Shown here one piece after another: positions 5,270 to 18,275 of a stretch of DNA of 21,540 nucleotides. Source of the DNA: a virus; IMG/VR virus record IMGVR_UViG_3300046458_000168, positions 1 to 21,540 of that record, one strand, 5' to 3'. Position 1 is the stretch's first letter. The number at the start of each line of letters is the position of its first letter. The notes beneath the pieces were generated by a model that saw nothing but the letters and a program-made list of their open reading frames with translations, had not been told where the DNA came from and did no database searches. The translations under genes were made by a program, and so were the position numbers.

Positions 5270-6055
5270 TTAGTTATGACATAACTCTGAGCAAATAATT
5301 AAAAGAAAAGAAAGTTGCAATATCATAGCCTTATCTTTAAGTTCGATTAAGGTATTGATATCAATGACATTATTAAAATCATTTCCATGGGCGATTGTGT
5401 GTCGCTTCATATTTAAATCATCAAGAAAGGTTTGCCATAATGTTCGACCTTTGTATTTTTTCGATTCTGTCCCATAGGGTTCTTTGCCCACTTGATAAGG
5501 AAAATTGATAACCATTCTTTTTATTTTTTTTGATGCTATTGGGAGGATTCTTTTAATTCTTGGGGATGTCATTGAGAAAACCTCATCGAATAAAGAACCA
5601 TTTAAATTTTTGAATATGTCTGAAACTCCAAAACGAGATGCTATTGATTCAAGAGTATCAGGTTTTGGATTTCTGTTTTTATTAAAGGTAAATGCTTCAT
5701 GAGTGATTTTAAAGTCACTAGATCTTTCTAAATCTGAGATGAGAGTTTTTATTCTCTCATGATAATTGGGAAAAGCAGTTTCATCAAAACCTAAGTGTCT
5801 TTTGCAATAAGTTATCTTTACTGCGTTTGGCAAGTTTTTAAACTCAACCGATGAATAATCACTAATTATATTTTTTGCAGCACCTTTAATGAACCCTTCC
5901 ATATGAGCAACTATGAGAATAGTTATTGAACGACAAAGAACATTGTATAGTTCAGTATTAGATGTTTCTACTCTGATAGCTTCTTGAGCTAGTATGTCAA
6001 TTTCTTTCCATTGAAGATCTACAGTATTTAGATAATCTGCAATGAACGTTGCCAT
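5270..6055 (-). CDS. HEPN-domain protein (MAE_28990/MAE_18760-like), putative RNase of a defence pair
   Basis: A 261-residue, AT-rich protein. The C-terminal part carries RHTIAHGND (R218, H223), the R-x4-H signature of HEPN ribonucleases, with helices on both sides. Near the N-terminus, ITILIVAHMEGFIKGAAKN (about 44-62) matches the helix typical of MAE_28990/MAE_18760-type HEPN proteins (H-x-E-G-F-x-K). Members of the HEPN group cut RNA in toxin-antitoxin, Abi and CRISPR systems, so this is the likely effector. Its ATG shares one base with the stop of the DUF262 gene (TAATG), so the two are almost certainly co-translated. The location, where P2 carries tin and old, suggests phage exclusion. 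The family is fairly sure from motifs; the function is inferred. Alternatively it could be a non-catalytic HEPN partner. Confidence 0.82.
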   Translation of the reverse strand: MATFIADYLNTVDLQWKEIDILAQEAIRVETSNTELYNVLCRSITILIVAHMEGFIKGAAKNIISDYSSVEFKNLPNAVKITYCKRHLGFDETAFPNYHERIKTLISDLERSSDFKITHEAFTFNKNRNPKPDTLESIASRFGVSDIFKNLNGSLFDEVFSMTSPRIKRILPIASKKIKRMVINFPYQVGKEPYGTESKKYKGRTLWQTFLDDLNMKRHTIAHGNDFNNVIDINTLIELKDKAMILQLSFLLIICSELCHN

Positions 6056-7137
6056 TAGAAAGCTCCCTTTGCTTTAGCAATCCTTGTGTTTAGCTTGGCA
6101 ACATCATTTACGCTACCTTCACAGGCAGAGAAAAATTCTGGGTCACTAAACATGTCGATAATCATATCTTCACTTACTGGTTTGTCTTTAAGGATGCTAA
6201 TTATGAATAAATGAGTTATAGCATCAAAAACTGCAGCATTAAAGTCAGACATTTTTTTAACCGTTTTACCGGTAACTCTGTACTTTGCAAATGGGATAGA
6301 TATATTGGATGCCCCAATCTTTCTAAATGTGTGAACGAATAAACGCTCCATCTTTTTTAGTGATTCATCATCTAGATCATTGAAATTACTCATTTTTGTT
6401 GTTAGGAATTGTTTGAATTTTCCTTTATAATCATCATGGCCATTTTTGAAATTAATCGCAAAAAAACGTAGGACTAATTCTTCGTCTTCCATTTTTTTCA
6501 CCCTTTTACTTTCAGGTGCTAATTTACAGGCTGTGAGAAAGTCATTATTGCAAACTAGTTTTTTTACCAAGTCTTTAAATGGTCCACGACAGGTGGCATT
6601 TCTCAGTTCTTGAGACTCTAATTTAACTGACCCTGAATTAAGGCGTTCAAAAATATCATATTTGACTTGAGGATCCACTGTGGAGTCGATTCGTAGGCAG
6701 CGAATGCTCCTTTCCTCTAATCGGCGAATCAAAAATGAAGGTAAATCCTTGTAAAAGGAACCATTTAATTTATCTAAAACCTCAAGTCCTTCCAATTGAT
6801 ATTCATTCTGAAAGAAATTATAAATGGCCGTAAGTCGTTGCTGTCCATCGATTACTGAAAATCGAGATGATTCAGTATCCACTTCAACATCCACATCAAC
6901 GTCCTGCGAGATATAAATAAATGGAATAGGGATGTTTAATATCAAGCTTTCAATAAGTCGAGATGAGTTCTCATTGCTCCAGCGATGTTTTCTCTGATAT
7001 TCGGGGTTGAGTTTAATAACATTTTTTTGTATTTTTTTGACAAGTGTTTCCAAGTCGTACTCTATAGTTTGAGTTTTTACAGTACGTTCTTTAGCTATTT
7101 GTTGAAGCTCATCAAGATTATGCTTGAGAGTAACCAT
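6055..7137 (-). CDS. DUF262 (GmrSD N-terminal/ParB-like) protein, first gene of the cargo operon
   Basis: A 360-residue protein with the clear DUF262 motif series: LNPEYQRKHRWS (43-54), the NIPIPFIYI block (68-76), VIDGQQRLTAIYNF (95-108) with the ParB-like DGQQR nucleotide-binding core, and FERLNSGSVKLESQELRNA (163-181). DUF262 domains occur in modification-dependent restriction enzymes (GmrS/BrxU type), where they bind and hydrolyse nucleotides. Here the usual C-terminal DUF1524 HNH nuclease is absent: after about residue 230 no H-N-H motif is visible. The next gene encodes a HEPN protein, so the nuclease activity may be supplied in trans. A TAAGGA ribosome site precedes the ATG. Composition is strongly AT-rich beside the GC-rich backbone, a sign of separate acquisition. 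Role as sensor or regulator is an inference. Confidence 0.88.
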   Translation of the reverse strand: MVTLKHNLDELQQIAKERTVKTQTIEYDLETLVKKIQKNVIKLNPEYQRKHRWSNENSSRLIESLILNIPIPFIYISQDVDVDVEVDTESSRFSVIDGQQRLTAIYNFFQNEYQLEGLEVLDKLNGSFYKDLPSFLIRRLEERSIRCLRIDSTVDPQVKYDIFERLNSGSVKLESQELRNATCRGPFKDLVKKLVCNNDFLTACKLAPESKRVKKMEDEELVLRFFAINFKNGHDDYKGKFKQFLTTKMSNFNDLDDESLKKMERLFVHTFRKIGASNISIPFAKYRVTGKTVKKMSDFNAAVFDAITHLFIISILKDKPVSEDMIIDMFSDPEFFSACEGSVNDVAKLNTRIAKAKGAF

Positions 7138-8796: not shown

Positions 8797-10566
8797 TTAA
8801 TAAATTTCCAGAATAGAGTTTGAGTGCATCCCGCTCCCGGCGGAAAGCGGCTCGTTTAACAGGGCGTGCATGGTCGCCCATGCGATATCCGCGTGGCTGG
8901 CCTCTTCACTGCGACTCGCTTCATAGGTCGAGCTGCGGCCACTGCTGGTCATGGTTTTACGGATTGCCATAAACGACTGCGTGATATCGGTCGCACCGGC
9001 GTCATATTCCAGACACCCGCGTCGGATGGTGTCTTTCGCTTTCAACACCATCGCGGTTTTCATTTCGGGCGTGTAGCGGATGGCGCGCGCCGCCGGGAAG
9101 AAGGAGCGCACGAGCTGGTAAACACCCTGGCCGATGCCGGTCGCATCGATGCCGATGTAGTCGACGGTGTATTTTTCGGTGAGTGAGCGGATGGCCTCGG
9201 CCTGTGCCGCAAAGTCCATGCCTTTCCACTGGTGACGCTCAAGGATGCGGAACTTGCCACCGGCAACCAGTGGCGGAGCCAGTACCGCACAGCCTGCGCT
9301 GTCGCCGGTGTGTGACGGGTCATAACCAATCCAGACCGGACGCCAGTTAAACGGACGGTCGGCAAACTGTTCGAAATCCTCCCACTCCTCCATCGCATCG
9401 ACCATGCAGCGCTGCAGCTCCTCGAACGGGAATACCGACGCCTTGTCATCGACGAACTCGCACATAAACAAATTGCGGAAATCGTCGGCGCTGTTTTCCT
9501 GTTTCAGCTGATCCAGATTGAACAGCGTGCAGCCCCCGGCGAGTGCATCCTCGATGGTGACAATCTGCCGCCACTGTCCATCCGGGCACAGCACGCCACC
9601 GGCGAGCGCCTGGTGGCTGATATCGATGTCGACCCGTTCGTCGCGGTTGCTGCGCCCCCGGTTAAACAGCTCGCCGGACCAGAACGGATATGCGCCGTGC
9701 GCCAGCGTCGAGGGCGTCGAGAAATAGGTGGTGCGCAGGTGCGACTGTGATGCCATCCCCGACGCCACTTTGCGCAGCCGCTGAAAGTTGGGTATCCAGA
9801 AAATTTCATCGACGTACAGGTCGCCGTTGTGGCTCTGCGCGGTGTTGGAGTTTGTCCCAAGGAAAATCAGCTCTGCGCCGTTGTTACCGATGACAATCGG
9901 GTCGCCTGACAGGTCAACGTCTACCAGCCGCGCGAAGGCGATGATGTACTTACGGAACACATACGCCTGCGTCTTACTCGCCGACAAAAATATCTGGTTC
10001 TGCCCGGTCTTGAGGGCGCGCAGCAGTGACTCACGCGCAAAGTAAAACGTCGCGCCAATCTGACGCGATTTGAGGATGTGGCGGATACGGTGCTCTAATC
10101 CGGCTTTATGCCAGTTGAGCTGATACTCAAATGACTGGTCGAGGAAAATCTCTTCCAGCTTCTCGATGGCCTCGTTGCTGAAATAATTGCGTTTCGGTTT
10201 TTTGCGATCCCCTTTGTTGCGGCTCGCAATGTTGGGGTTTAAATCCACTTCATTTCCGGTCTGGCCGTAGCGGTTGATGCGTGCGAACCGTTCCATCTGA
10301 CGCGACAAAAAATCAGCGACCTTAAAATCATGCGGTGTCAGGTCAGGTTTGGCGTAGAGCTGAATCAGCCGCGCTTCAAGTGTCGTTTCCACGCGGTTGA
10401 GCGGCGCGGTTTCTTCCCATCCGTCGCGCTGCTTCCAGCTCTGCACCGTCGGGCGCTTCACCTGCAGCGTGTCGGCGATTTGCGGCACAGAAAATCCCTG
10501 CCAGAAGAGCAGGCGCGCCTGTCGTCGCGGGTCGTGTAACAGGGAGAGGTCAGTCGAAAGGGTCAT
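8797..10566 (-). CDS. P: Terminase large (ATPase/nuclease) subunit P
   Basis: Motor of DNA packaging. The 589-residue product (P2 P is 590) begins with a helix-turn-helix (about 24-45, GFSVPQIADTLQVKRPTVQSW) for cos binding. The ATPase has a Walker-A-like loop KSRQIGAT (166-173) and Walker B LYVDEIFW (250-257; D253, E254). A nuclease fold follows with acidic residues in GYDPSHTGDS (D416) and GIDATGIG (D474), and a late aspartate in ASHADIAW. The start at 10566 (MTLSTDLSLLHDPRRQ) matches P2; an in-frame ATG at 10596 is less likely. With M it cuts at cos. Confidence 0.95.
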   Translation of the reverse strand: MTLSTDLSLLHDPRRQARLLFWQGFSVPQIADTLQVKRPTVQSWKQRDGWEETAPLNRVETTLEARLIQLYAKPDLTPHDFKVADFLSRQMERFARINRYGQTGNEVDLNPNIASRNKGDRKKPKRNYFSNEAIEKLEEIFLDQSFEYQLNWHKAGLEHRIRHILKSRQIGATFYFARESLLRALKTGQNQIFLSASKTQAYVFRKYIIAFARLVDVDLSGDPIVIGNNGAELIFLGTNSNTAQSHNGDLYVDEIFWIPNFQRLRKVASGMASQSHLRTTYFSTPSTLAHGAYPFWSGELFNRGRSNRDERVDIDISHQALAGGVLCPDGQWRQIVTIEDALAGGCTLFNLDQLKQENSADDFRNLFMCEFVDDKASVFPFEELQRCMVDAMEEWEDFEQFADRPFNWRPVWIGYDPSHTGDSAGCAVLAPPLVAGGKFRILERHQWKGMDFAAQAEAIRSLTEKYTVDYIGIDATGIGQGVYQLVRSFFPAARAIRYTPEMKTAMVLKAKDTIRRGCLEYDAGATDITQSFMAIRKTMTSSGRSSTYEASRSEEASHADIAWATMHALLNEPLSAGSGMHSNSILEIY

Positions 10567-15566: not shown

Positions 15567-15996
15567 CGCCGTACCGCAGCTAAAAACCAACCCCGAAATG
15601 ATGCGCATCTTTGCCGACGAGGGGAATATCGATGCGCGTCTGGCAGCGTCGTTGTCGCACGAAAAGATTTACACCCTGAATGTGATCGTGTGTGATTTTG
15701 TGGGCGACCCGGATTTGATATTCGTGCCGGTCGCCGCGTGGCTGCGTGAGAACCAGCCGGATATCTGCACCACGGATGAGGGGCGGAAAAAGGGCTATCG
15801 GTTCCAGATGGATTTGAACGACGGGGACAACGTCGATATCAGTATCAGTCTGCAACTCACCGAGCGCACGCTCGTCAGGGATGAAAACGGCGCACTGCAC
15901 GTCAGCTATGCGCCTGAGCCGCCATTGCCCGAGCCGGTGACGCGTCCGACCGAGCTGTATATCAATGGCGAGCTGGTGAGCAAATGGGATGAGTGA
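15529..15996 (+). CDS. R: Tail completion protein R
   Basis: Needed to finish the tail or its junction. The 155-residue product has the P2 R length and the blocks KSLRRALTDAVPQL, SLSHEKIYTLNVIV, VPVAAWLRENQPDICTTDEG and LTERTLVRDENGALHVSYAP, ending ELYINGELVSKW. The start at 15529 (MQKMKSL) aligns with P2 MMKLKSL; an open stretch upstream lies inside lysB/lysC. It overlaps lysC and, by 8 bases, S. Confidence 0.93.
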   Translation: MQKMKSLRRALTDAVPQLKTNPEMMRIFADEGNIDARLAASLSHEKIYTLNVIVCDFVGDPDLIFVPVAAWLRENQPDICTTDEGRKKGYRFQMDLNDGDNVDISISLQLTERTLVRDENGALHVSYAPEPPLPEPVTRPTELYINGELVSKWDE

Positions 15997-16441
15997 ATTT
16001 AAACCCTTTGACGATAAGCTGGCCGGGCTGATTGGGGCGTTGTCACCGGCGGGACGGCGCAAGCTCGCTGCTGAGATTGCGAAGGAACTGCGTAAATCGC
16101 AACAGCAACGCATCAAGCAGCAAAAAGCTCCCGATGGCTCGCCGTATCAGGCCAGAAAGCGCCAGCCGCTCAGGGCAAAGAATGGGCGAATCAAAAGGGC
16201 GATGTTCCAGAAGTTGCGAACCAGTCGCTATATGAAAGCCAGTGGCCGTAATGATACGGCTGTGGTGGAGTTTACCGGCAAGGTGCAGCGAATTGCTCAG
16301 ATTCATCAGTTAGGACTCAAAGATCGACCAAGTTTACACAGTCGGGAAGTGAATTATCCTGAAAGAAAATTATTAGGAATAAGTAATGCTGATTTAAACA
16401 TCATTGAACATCTTCTTTTTAAAAACATGACAAGAAATTAA
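15989..16441 (+). CDS. S: Tail completion protein S, with AT-rich 3' end
   Basis: P2 S is required for tail completion. At 150 residues the product has the P2 length. The first 110 residues are GC-rich and close to P2 (RKLAAEIAKELRKSQQQRIK, QKAPDGSPYQARKRQPLRAK, MFQKLRTSRYMKASG, AVVEFTGKVQRIAQIHQLGL). From about 16330 the DNA turns AT-rich while the protein still resembles the P2 S end (LLG...D...IE). Hence the 3' end came from a relative with AT-rich DNA, together with the cargo behind it. The gene ends only 9 bases before a hairpin shared with the convergent cargo gene. Confidence 0.9.
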   Translation: MSEFKPFDDKLAGLIGALSPAGRRKLAAEIAKELRKSQQQRIKQQKAPDGSPYQARKRQPLRAKNGRIKRAMFQKLRTSRYMKASGRNDTAVVEFTGKVQRIAQIHQLGLKDRPSLHSREVNYPERKLLGISNADLNIIEHLLFKNMTRN

Positions 16442-16449
16442 ATGTAAAA

Positions 16450-16480
16450 ATTAAAGGTGGATTAAAGCCCCACCTTTAAT
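16450..16480. terminator. Bidirectional terminator between S and the membrane-protein gene
   Basis: ATTAAAGGTGG (16450-16460) pairs perfectly with CCACCTTTAAT (16470-16480), an 11-bp stem with a 9-base loop. It lies between convergent stops (16441 and 16485). For the minus-strand gene it is followed by a U-tract (complement of the A-run at 16446-16450), a good intrinsic terminator. For S it may also stop late transcription before V. Confidence 0.82.
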
Positions 16481-16484
16481 AATA

Positions 16485-17555
16485 TCATTTTGGTTTTATC
16501 GCTGATATTAGCGATGCAATTTGTTCAATGCCATCAAAGGTTGAAGGTATTTTTTCTTGGTTTGGCATTATATTGGAGAATATGACATCTTCAAACTTCA
16601 TAAGAGAGTTTGGGTTTGAGTCCTTTATTGACTTAGAGTAGTCTGCATAGCTTTGAATAAACTGACACAGGCTTTTCCTTAAATCAATTTGCAATGTTTG
16701 CGCCTTCAAGGATGTATGGTTATTAAGTGCCACTCTGAAGTAGTAAATCAAAATTAAAGTGAGGGAAAATAATGGGATAAATGTAATTAATTTATTTAAT
16801 GAGCTGGCTTCATTTGTTTTAAGGACTGTATAGATGATCTCAATAATCAAAGGGCAAGGGATTGCAATAGCTAGTGCAACCAAAAGTAATCTTGACCAAA
16901 AAATCTCCCTGCCTTTTTGATCACCTAATAATTTGAACCCTTCGTACAACCCAACGAAGTTAAAAGCGCTTTGATACCCTTCTAATTTTGATTTTATCTC
17001 ATTAATGTTATTTTCTTTTTCTTCAATGTACATCTTCCAATTAGCCGCAAAATCTTTTGCCGATCTAACATTGTTCATGAAATCTCTGAATGTATGAATT
17101 TCATCACCATTAAAAGTTGCTCTAATTAGATTAAGAGGCATCTCACGCAGAGCATAATCTATCTGCCCCTTGCTTCTGTCATCAAACTCATTATATCGAT
17201 ATATGCCAAAGTTTTTTATTTCTTTAATGGTGTTGAAGGGGGCGTCTAAGGCTTCATCAAAAATTGTTGGTTCAACGCAGAAACGAAAGCAAGACGTAAA
17301 AATGATGTTTAAAGATTGCGTGGTTAATAACTTATCCTCTAACTCGCTTGCAAATACATCTCCGATATTTTCAATGTTAAATTCCGCTTTTTCATCCCAC
17401 TCCTCGGATTTTTTTAAAAATATGTCAAAGATGCTAACTAGCAAAGCGTTTCTTGTTTTCTCAAATTCACTAGTTATCTCTAGCGATTCTAAAGTTTTCA
17501 TATAATCGCGCATCAACTGCTGTATGCGTGGTGTAGAAAAAAATTTAGTGGTCAT
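16485..17555 (-). CDS. AT-rich accessory membrane protein, unknown function, putative phage-exclusion cargo
   Basis: A 356-residue protein I do not recognise. Residues 1-220 are hydrophilic and mostly helical with no catalytic motif I can name; 176-195 could form a coiled coil. Two TM segments follow, about 222-245 (RLLLVALAIAIPCPLIIEII) and 256-274 (LITFIPLFSLTLILIYYF), separated by a 10-residue loop, then about 80 soluble residues. Both large domains would therefore lie on the same side of the membrane, presumably in the cytoplasm. The gene is minus-strand, AT-rich, alone, and sits between S and V, where P2 carries the small orf30. It has its own terminator. A soluble sensor on a two-TM anchor fits an abortive-infection or superinfection-exclusion protein; this is inference from context and topology only. 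Confidence 0.85.
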   Translation of the reverse strand: MTTKFFSTPRIQQLMRDYMKTLESLEITSEFEKTRNALLVSIFDIFLKKSEEWDEKAEFNIENIGDVFASELEDKLLTTQSLNIIFTSCFRFCVEPTIFDEALDAPFNTIKEIKNFGIYRYNEFDDRSKGQIDYALREMPLNLIRATFNGDEIHTFRDFMNNVRSAKDFAANWKMYIEEKENNINEIKSKLEGYQSAFNFVGLYEGFKLLGDQKGREIFWSRLLLVALAIAIPCPLIIEIIYTVLKTNEASSLNKLITFIPLFSLTLILIYYFRVALNNHTSLKAQTLQIDLRKSLCQFIQSYADYSKSIKDSNPNSLMKFEDVIFSNIMPNQEKIPSTFDGIEQIASLISAIKPK

Positions 17556-17639
17556 CTAATTTCATCCGTTTCTGTTGTGCGATGAATGGCAAATCTATGT
17601 TGGATTTATATCTTATTGGAAGGGGAACATTATGCCCAT
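17556..17639. promoter_or_regulatory. Divergent region between cargo gene and V; candidate PV site and V leader
   Basis: Holds the starts of both genes. CTGTTGTG at 17572-17579 repeats the 8 bases seen between P and O and could be part of an Ogr site (TGT-N12-AAA from 17576, one base off); but a box centred there would put the transcript start at the V ATG, so the match may be chance. GGAAGGGG at 17618-17625 is a strong ribosome site, 6 bases before the ATG of a three-codon frame (17632-17643, MPI-stop) whose TGA overlaps the V ATG at 17640. Confidence 0.4.
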
Positions 17640-18275
17640 ATGAAAACTCAACTCAATGACATCATGCGCATTTTGCGCAACCTCATCCGCACCGGCATTG
17701 TGACCGACGTCGACCACGTCGAGGGGCTTTGTCGTGTCCAGACCGGCGGGATGCAAACCACGTGGCTAAACTGGCTGACCTCACGCGCCGGTCGCTCGCG
17801 TTTGTGGTGGGCTCCTTCCGTTGGCGAGCAGGTGCTCATTCTTGCCATCGGTGGCGAGCTCGACACCGCCTTTGTGCTGCCCGGCATTTTCTCGGATGAC
17901 CATCCCGCGCCGTCTGCCTCGCCTGATGCGCTTCATATTGCCTTTCCTGACGGGGCGGTTATCGAGTACGAGCCCGACAGCGGGGCGCTTACCGTGTCCG
18001 GTATCAAAACCGCTGACGTCATCGCGTCGGATTCCATTACTGCCACCGTGCCGGTGGTGCTGGTGAAAGCCTCAACCCGTATCACGCTCGATACACCCGA
18101 GGTGGTGTGTACCAATAAGCTCATCACCGGGACTCTCGAAGTGCAGAAGGGCGGGAAAATGTATGGGGATATCGAGCACACCGGCGGGAAACTGACCTCC
18201 AACGGCGTGCAGGTGGATGACCACGACCACGGCGGCGTGAAGCGCGGCGATGACAGAACGGTGGGGACACAATGA
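17640..18275 (+). CDS. V: Baseplate assembly protein V (central spike)
   Basis: Forms the trimeric membrane-piercing spike at the tip of the P2 tail. The 211-residue product has the P2 length. CRVQTGGMQTTWLNWLTSRAG, LWWAPSVGEQVLILAIGGEL, ALHIAFPDGAVIEYEPDSG and VQKGGKMYGDIEHTGGKL are conserved; the latter belongs to the beta-helix. The C-terminal VQVDDHDHGG has the histidines (HxH) that bind the apical iron in P2 V. The start at 17640 matches P2; another in-frame ATG at 17586 lies in the AT-rich intergenic part. V overlaps W by 4 bases (ATGA). Confidence 0.95.
   Translation: MKTQLNDIMRILRNLIRTGIVTDVDHVEGLCRVQTGGMQTTWLNWLTSRAGRSRLWWAPSVGEQVLILAIGGELDTAFVLPGIFSDDHPAPSASPDALHIAFPDGAVIEYEPDSGALTVSGIKTADVIASDSITATVPVVLVKASTRITLDTPEVVCTNKLITGTLEVQKGGKMYGDIEHTGGKLTSNGVQVDDHDHGGVKRGDDRTVGTQ

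Follow-up and report, generated by a model that had tools for sequence, protein, structure and literature searches.

A two-TM protein family without assigned function, exchanged as a cassette at the S-V accessory site of P2-like phages

INTRODUCTION

In P2-like phages, some accessory genes with anti-phage function sit between conserved phage genes but are encoded on the opposite strand. The accessible text of PMC9122126 describes a hotspot of this kind between A and Q (old/tin), and that of PMC9519451 presents the fun locus as a second. The available part of PMC3091744 names the TO region, Z/fun and orf30 as three regions whose genes were acquired horizontally; because the orf30 region is on this list, the interval between genes S and V was already known as a variable locus. 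The accessible text of PMC9122126 and PMC9519451 does not treat S-V as a hotspot of defence genes, and we found no statement to that effect about S-V/orf30 in the literature searched; the Egorov et al. preprint on variability hotspots of phage genomes, as cited in the available text of PMC11850299, may list the site. In P2 itself, the slot holds Orf30 (9439-10224, minus strand), which is annotated as nonessential and has the O-operon terminator on one side and the pV activator site on the other.

Here we describe the S-V site of a viral DNA stretch of 21,540 nucleotides (IMG/VR record IMGVR_UViG_3300046458_000168, hereafter the window). As at old/tin and fun, a gene on the opposite strand separates conserved P2 genes here, although the site is a different one. 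The gene shares with P2 Orf30 the site and the antiparallel strand, and the longest member of the Orf30 cluster has one hydrophobic segment; yet it is a separate gene in the same slot, as homology to Orf30 was rejected by both BLASTP (E 2.2) and hhalign (probability 0.1%, E 0.59).

Two groups of membrane proteins offer architectural comparisons. SLATT and other two-TM defence effectors have two TM helices and helical soluble parts, a build that the window protein shares, and a SLATT_5 protein is present at the same S-V site in another phage. No SLATT or putAbiC model matched the window protein at E <= 10, and none was among the first 25 of 34 families matched by 62 members of its family at E <= 0.05. 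CorA/MCU-type channels, for which GMN and DIME are the motifs, resemble the predicted arrangement of a long helix leading into TM1, a short turn and TM2, and one of the 62 members hits CorA weakly (E 5.3e-4). Unlike these channels, the window protein lacks GMN and DIME and has about 80 conserved residues after TM2.

RESULTS

The sole gene between the P2-type S and V genes of the window is an intact ORF on the minus strand, which runs from ATG to TGA and encodes 356 amino acids. Its neighbors on the plus strand were identified as S (TIGR01635, E 2.5e-40) on the left and V (TIGR01644, E 2.7e-68) on the right. The features of the locus are as follows.

15989..16441, plus strand: gene S, left flank; last 105 bases AT-rich (GC 0.28 vs 0.54)
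16450..16480, minus strand: terminator of the 356-aa gene, a 12-pair hairpin with a T-run (hairpin scan)
16485..17555, minus strand: phrog_9373-family gene, 356 aa; stop codon at 16485-16487
17575..17593, plus strand: TTGT-N11-CAAA dyad, within a stretch aligning to the annotated P2 pV activator region
17629..17656, minus strand: weak sigma-70-like site (9/12), candidate promoter of the 356-aa gene, overlapping the start of V
17640..18275, plus strand: gene V, right flank; the ORF opens at 17586 and the start at 17640 is by P2 homology

GC content is about 0.34 throughout the gene, compared with about 0.54-0.63 on either side. A preliminary description of the sequence had noted a lone, AT-rich antiparallel gene with its own terminator at the position of P2 orf30, and the ORF calls, the composition, the hairpin at 16480-16450 and the minus-strand location of Orf30 in the same slot bear this out. 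The terminator is assigned by its position and not by the site count, as a scan of 1.7 kb for hairpins with a T-run found 2 sites vs 1.1 expected. Sigma-70-like sites (6 found vs 4.8 expected) are not significant alone, and the dyad, with 3 occurrences in the window vs 1.0 expected, is weak alone as an activator-site motif.

The protein belongs to phrog_9373 (PHROGs v4), a family with no function assigned, which it matches at E 2.8e-82 over residues 31-355 of 356; all 62 aligned members match the same family. The preliminary description had recognized no known family. In that respect, it stands for the curated libraries and fails for PHROGs: no Pfam family scored above its curated cut-off (best BrkB, E 0.014, 15.4 bits vs 33.7), nor did any NCBIfam model (best 15.9 vs 69.35), and PADLOC-DB 2.0.0, a library that lacks systems described later, gave 0 families at E <= 10. 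At the outset, kinship with a tail protein or with a metabolic or housekeeping family had been named as grounds for abandoning the defence idea. The searches found nothing above the cut-offs; the weak hits were the one to BrkB and one of residues 6-42 to phrog_11933, a head maturation protease (E 0.0047). Searches by family number, phage names and accession found no paper on the phrog_9373 family.

Scans with the single protein gave one viral and 0 genome relatives, and scans with the alignment gave 79 viral and 80 genome loci, each from the best 80 of 83. Among these 79 viral loci, 58 have the gene at S-V, antiparallel in 56, and 16 have no P2 late gene detected in the DNA examined. In one of the latter (L073), the gene has a DUF2303 gene on one side and a lambda-type integrase on the other; in Klebsiella phage-plasmids, it adjoins a DNA primase gene on the opposite strand. 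Relatives also occur in Yersinia, in two P2-like phages with four records, and in four records of Klebsiella phages. Matches to 225 plasmid records, 223 of them from Klebsiella, nearly all cover less than half of the protein, and in E. coli, prophages of 59 among 5426 genomes show nucleotide matches that span a quarter of the gene; both E. coli loci that we opened (L007 and L008) have it at S-V. The 80 genome loci are mainly proteobacterial, with titles that include Geotalea, Sulfuricurvum and Nitrospirales, and 71 of them have no P2 late gene near the family gene (best 80 of 83). Presence is patchy, at 8 of 295 genomes of one order, of which two were known beforehand and one is a weak match.

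Some P2-like elements depart from this arrangement. At four S-V loci (L070, L071 and, from Aeromonas, L140 and L142), the gene and the late genes share a strand, and in L070 and L071 other ORFs come before it. In L064 and L125 (Marinobacterium iners), a P2-like element carries it between D and ogr, perhaps another accessory junction; a 674-aa HATPase protein adjoins it in L064.

Most viral relatives keep intact frames, with breaks in at least 5 of 79 (L022, L045, L065, L067 and L069). dN/dS was 0.06-0.24 in the 8 of 11 pairs with estimable dS, indicating purifying selection; dS was saturated in the other 3, including the window's own pair. Given the mostly intact frames and these ratios, we conclude that the gene is maintained.

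We surveyed the S-V site more broadly with three viral scans from V and S proteins, keeping the best 80 each, which gave 240 loci, 216 with both S and V and 186 distinct. Because of this seeding, the proportions are not population frequencies. The S-V gap falls into two classes with no intermediates: it is 69-95 bp in 69 loci, which we call empty, and at least 700 bp in 117, and all 117 inserts are AT-richer than their flanks. ORFs of at least 80 aa, found at 115 of 186 loci, form 78 clusters, of which 50 are singletons and 55 supply the main insert ORF. The largest cluster is that of P2 orf30, with 17 phage ORFs, followed by the phrog_9373 family, with 13 ORFs at 11 loci; in 28 of the 78 clusters, the longest member has at least one predicted TM segment. 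Representatives of 75 of the 78 clusters (those of at least 100 aa) were scanned at 1e-5, without a control set of their own. The first 25 of 312 PADLOC families include PtuA (Septu; E 7e-144), AriA (PARIS) and AbiLi among others; the first 25 of 57 Pfam families include AAA_21 (AbiEii-type AAA) in 7 representatives, SIR2_2 in 2, and SLATT_5, RVT_1, GmrSD_N, HEPN_RiboL-PSP and PIN_12 in one each, together with the non-defence cargo alkyl sulfatase and MASE4/GGDEF. These tallies, like those for chromosomal neighbors below, cover the first 25 families by family rather than by protein, and since the ATPase models overlap and a single protein may match a number of them, there are fewer systems than models at S-V. 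The preliminary description had proposed such a survey to see whether defence genes cluster at the site; defence-like genes do cluster there, with PtuA, AriA, SIR2_2, RVT_1 and HEPN among the matches listed. The 78 insert clusters (loci L209-L448) may also hold defence genes beyond the known models.

Comparison of similar phages shows that the gene moves between them. From a list of discordant pairs, we chose five with contrasting identities, including the window and L017. Nucleotide identity between these two is 0.92 in R, 0.93 in J and 0.88 both in V and in the 5' part of S, but only 0.53 in the family gene as well as in the S 3' part. The pairs L028/L029, L028/L032, L026/L066 and L010/L034 repeat this pattern, with 0.52-0.56 in the gene and 0.83-0.94 in R and V. 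With flanks 83-94% and genes 52-56% identical in the five pairs, we conclude that the gene has been exchanged as a cassette. For the window and L010, the difference is milder, with 0.66 in the gene compared with 0.85 in R and 0.81 in V, and L037 and L002 are identical throughout. Across 40 loci, distances of the gene correlate with those of S, V and J at 0.58-0.63 (Pearson), compared with 0.74-0.84 for S, V and J among themselves; the gap is smaller by Spearman correlation (0.37-0.50 vs 0.51-0.59).

The 3' end of S also differs in composition, with a GC content of 0.43 at filled sites vs 0.53 at empty ones and 0.28 in the window. The exchange junctions therefore seem to reach into S, and in the window the junction seems to lie inside S, whose last 105 bases are AT-rich. 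Separately, we observed that the S 3' end (16330-16441 in the window) varies with the insert among S-V loci L209-L448 and has low identity in the discordant pairs. It seems that the C terminus of this tail-completion protein is exchanged along with the cassette.

The protein itself is divided into parts that differ in conservation, as listed here in the order of the polypeptide.

17106..17555, minus strand: all-helical N-terminal domain (residues 1-150), which evolves fast; E95 is near-invariant
16905..17105, minus strand: long helix, residues 151-217; near-invariant NFVGLxxGFxxLxxxK right before TM1
16821..16904, minus strand: TM1, about residues 218-245 (hydropathy and model helices)
16725..16793, minus strand: TM2, about residues 255-277 (hydropathy; model helix 252-313)
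16488..16724, minus strand: C-terminal module, residues 278-356; near-invariant Q286, Q289, R293, L296, C297, F299, Y303, F321, F326, P337, D341 and G342

Hydropathy identifies two hydrophobic segments, with peaks at residues 223-241 and 259-277 and a TM1-TM2 loop of only about 9 residues, so the layout given in the preliminary description, 220 soluble residues, two TM segments and 80 soluble residues, was right. By the same rule, 55 of the 62 aligned proteins have two segments and 7 have one. This alignment comprises the window protein and, after removal of near-duplicates and broken frames, those from 61 viral loci out of 79; adding 71 of the 80 genome loci (best 80 of 83) gave a set of 133 proteins for conservation. 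In this set, at least 97% of the proteins share one residue at E95, N199, F200, V201, L203, G206, F207, K214, Y271, F273 and each of the positions listed above for the C-terminal module. Mean identity in the N-terminal domain is 27% among 50 P2-type members and 14% between these and 12 others, compared with 62% and 43% in the C-terminal stalk and 59% and 37% in the tail, and dN of the N-terminal domain exceeds that of residues 190-356 in 10 of 11 pairs. The suggestion of a sensor-like membrane protein thus stands in part: this is a membrane-anchored accessory protein, but its conservation peaks in the membrane-proximal and C-terminal module, and the N-terminal "sensor" part evolves fast.

An AlphaFold2 model of the full protein, built from 62 sequences, is all-helical (mean pLDDT 79, pTM only 0.46): a helix of about 80 residues enters TM1, a second long helix contains TM2, and the tail is uncertain, with pLDDT < 50 at residues 328-356. 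Modelled alone, the N-terminal domain (residues 1-152) is confident (pLDDT 92.6, pTM 0.88). Among solved structures searched by sequence, nothing scored below E 0.5. Foldseek searches with the full model gave microtubule-doublet proteins with long helices as the top rows in the PDB (best E 0.038) and nothing at E <= 0.001 in BFVD. VIA-align matches to the full model reached Z 10.8 and were discarded because the tool gives about 13 for long helices; many of the 50 rows were coiled coils, and some were alpha-pore-forming toxins and IpaB. For the N-terminal domain alone, the best Foldseek E was 1.1 and the best VIA Z 5.4 (rmsd 6.3, 116 aligned). None of these fold matches is convincing, and none of the solved structures searched is a convincing counterpart of the near-invariant two-TM module; this absence does not prove a new fold.

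Copies in bacterial chromosomes also stand alone and are rich in AT. In all 72 measured genome loci outside S-V, the gene is AT-richer than its context (median -0.14). We scanned 143 neighbors from 45 genome loci (137 of the first 150 of 221 candidates, plus six added from L144, L148, L154 and L160; 12 loci with similar contexts or short contigs were skipped) and, as a control, all 142 proteins from regions that we placed well away from the gene, for the most part on its own contig; these came from 39 of the same 45 genomes. At 1e-8, the neighbors matched 103 PADLOC families and the controls 58. The first 25 families include HamA, ThsB1, AbiP, HEC-06 and Orf5 models for the neighbors, and are mainly restriction-modification, RtcR-type regulators and MotB-like ZorB for the controls. 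Since the matched control also yields defence models, the chromosomal enrichment is modest. The sole full HamA in the 45 genomes lies 0.7 kb from the family gene and the sole ThsB1 match 1.5 kb from it, and 2 of 7 putAbiC and 2 of 43 GmrSD_N stretches lie within 2 kb, where the 2.5 kb on each side of the 45 genes amount to about 0.12% of 188 Mb in total; these four models were picked after they had appeared among the neighbors. Two tyrosine integrases among the matches listed lie at most 1.3 kb from the gene (G020 and G028), but integrases occur in every genome, and we give these two no weight. Some copies adjoin housekeeping genes, namely thiolase (Acinetobacter), ribonucleotide reductase (Psychrobacter) and succinyl-CoA ligase (Aeromonas), which by themselves are no argument for defence. 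A strong claim that chromosomal copies lie in defence islands is weakened by the matched control and these housekeeping neighbors.

Two chromosomal sites recur, judged by gene lengths, with gene identities taken from one annotated locus per set. In Acinetobacter (L144, L147, L150, L151 and L168), the gene lies beside 390-aa and 717-740-aa genes, with the thiolase in L144; in Psychrobacter (L160 and L163-L166), it lies beside a 758-aa gene, with the ribonucleotide reductase in L160.

The window carries a second AT-rich insert, at the old/tin site (5270-7137, minus strand). There, a 360-aa GmrSD_N protein (PADLOC NsnA, E 2.6e-76) adjoins a 261-aa RiboL-PSP-HEPN protein that has no PADLOC match. 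The pair resembles a defence system of two genes, of which PADLOC lacks the HEPN partner.

DISCUSSION

The 356-aa gene is a probable P2-type conversion gene of an unnamed family. It is placed like lysogenic-conversion (moron) genes of the P2 type: it stands alone outside the late operons, is antiparallel in 56 of 58 S-V viral loci and has a terminator-like site, and 69 of 186 loci leave the site empty. The structure of the locus, the exchange of the gene as a cassette and the conserved membrane module are established here. What the protein does must be judged from these properties and its company, and from them we consider it probable that it serves defence or exclusion in some form. Several observations count against a defence reading: the window protein lacks a PADLOC match, the enrichment of defence models near chromosomal copies is modest, S-V also accepts cargo such as alkyl sulfatase and GGDEF genes, and some chromosomal copies have housekeeping neighbors.

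The last two of these observations favor a lysogenic-conversion role unrelated to defence, for instance in membrane stress or as host-fitness cargo, since MASE4/GGDEF and alkyl sulfatase genes share the S-V site and thiolase, ribonucleotide reductase and succinyl-CoA ligase genes adjoin some copies. Nevertheless, a physiological gene would not usually be AT-richer than its context at every genome locus measured outside S-V, present in so few genomes of one order, or so rapidly divergent in its N-terminal part, and we regard this role as unlikely. A contribution to phage structure, lysis or late regulation might be imagined for a gene that sits between two late operons, but such a role is highly improbable for one that lies on the strand opposite to those operons at nearly all S-V viral loci (best 80 of 83), shares its site with the nonessential Orf30, is dispensed with wherever S-V is empty, and has copies with no P2 gene detected nearby.

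The protein could also act at entry, with an inner-membrane two-TM protein that blocks injection and leaves the cell unharmed, its alleles excluding different phages. The two-TM layout and the location in a phage accessory site suit such superinfection exclusion, and allele exchange between similar backbones fits a shifting exclusion specificity. Against this, a mostly soluble helical protein with a TM loop of about 9 residues would be an odd build for an entry block, and most chromosomal copies (71 of 80 loci, best 80 of 83) have no P2 gene detected nearby. We therefore consider exclusion at entry rather unlikely.

The reading that we tentatively place first, at somewhat less than even confidence, is that of a stand-alone lysogenic-conversion gene that protects the lysogen from other phages by membrane damage. 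Independently of the late operons, a promoter of its own would drive the gene in the lysogen. Both the N- and the C-terminal part of the protein would face the cytoplasm, and the short turn between the TM segments would lie in the periplasm. The N-terminal domain may recognize an infection cue, which would explain why it evolves fast and is exchanged. Recognition would rearrange the conserved module around the TM hairpin, the hairpin would then multimerize or open in the inner membrane, and depolarization or growth arrest would stop the infected cell before the phage matures. The low pTM of the full model (0.46) and the lack of a structural match that tells the mechanism count against the membrane-damage version.

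It is conceivable, though we would not yet favor it over the contrary, that phrog_9373 is an undescribed, widespread class of single-gene inner-membrane anti-phage effectors, in which an exchangeable helical sensor is joined to a near-invariant two-TM module and alleles are swapped at S-V as a third hotspot beside A-Q and fun. Our analysis offers a testable function for a nameless family found in three kinds of phage and many, mainly proteobacterial, genomes, and it points to S-V, with 78 ORF clusters at 115 of 186 loci, as a rich place to seek defence genes in P2-like prophages.
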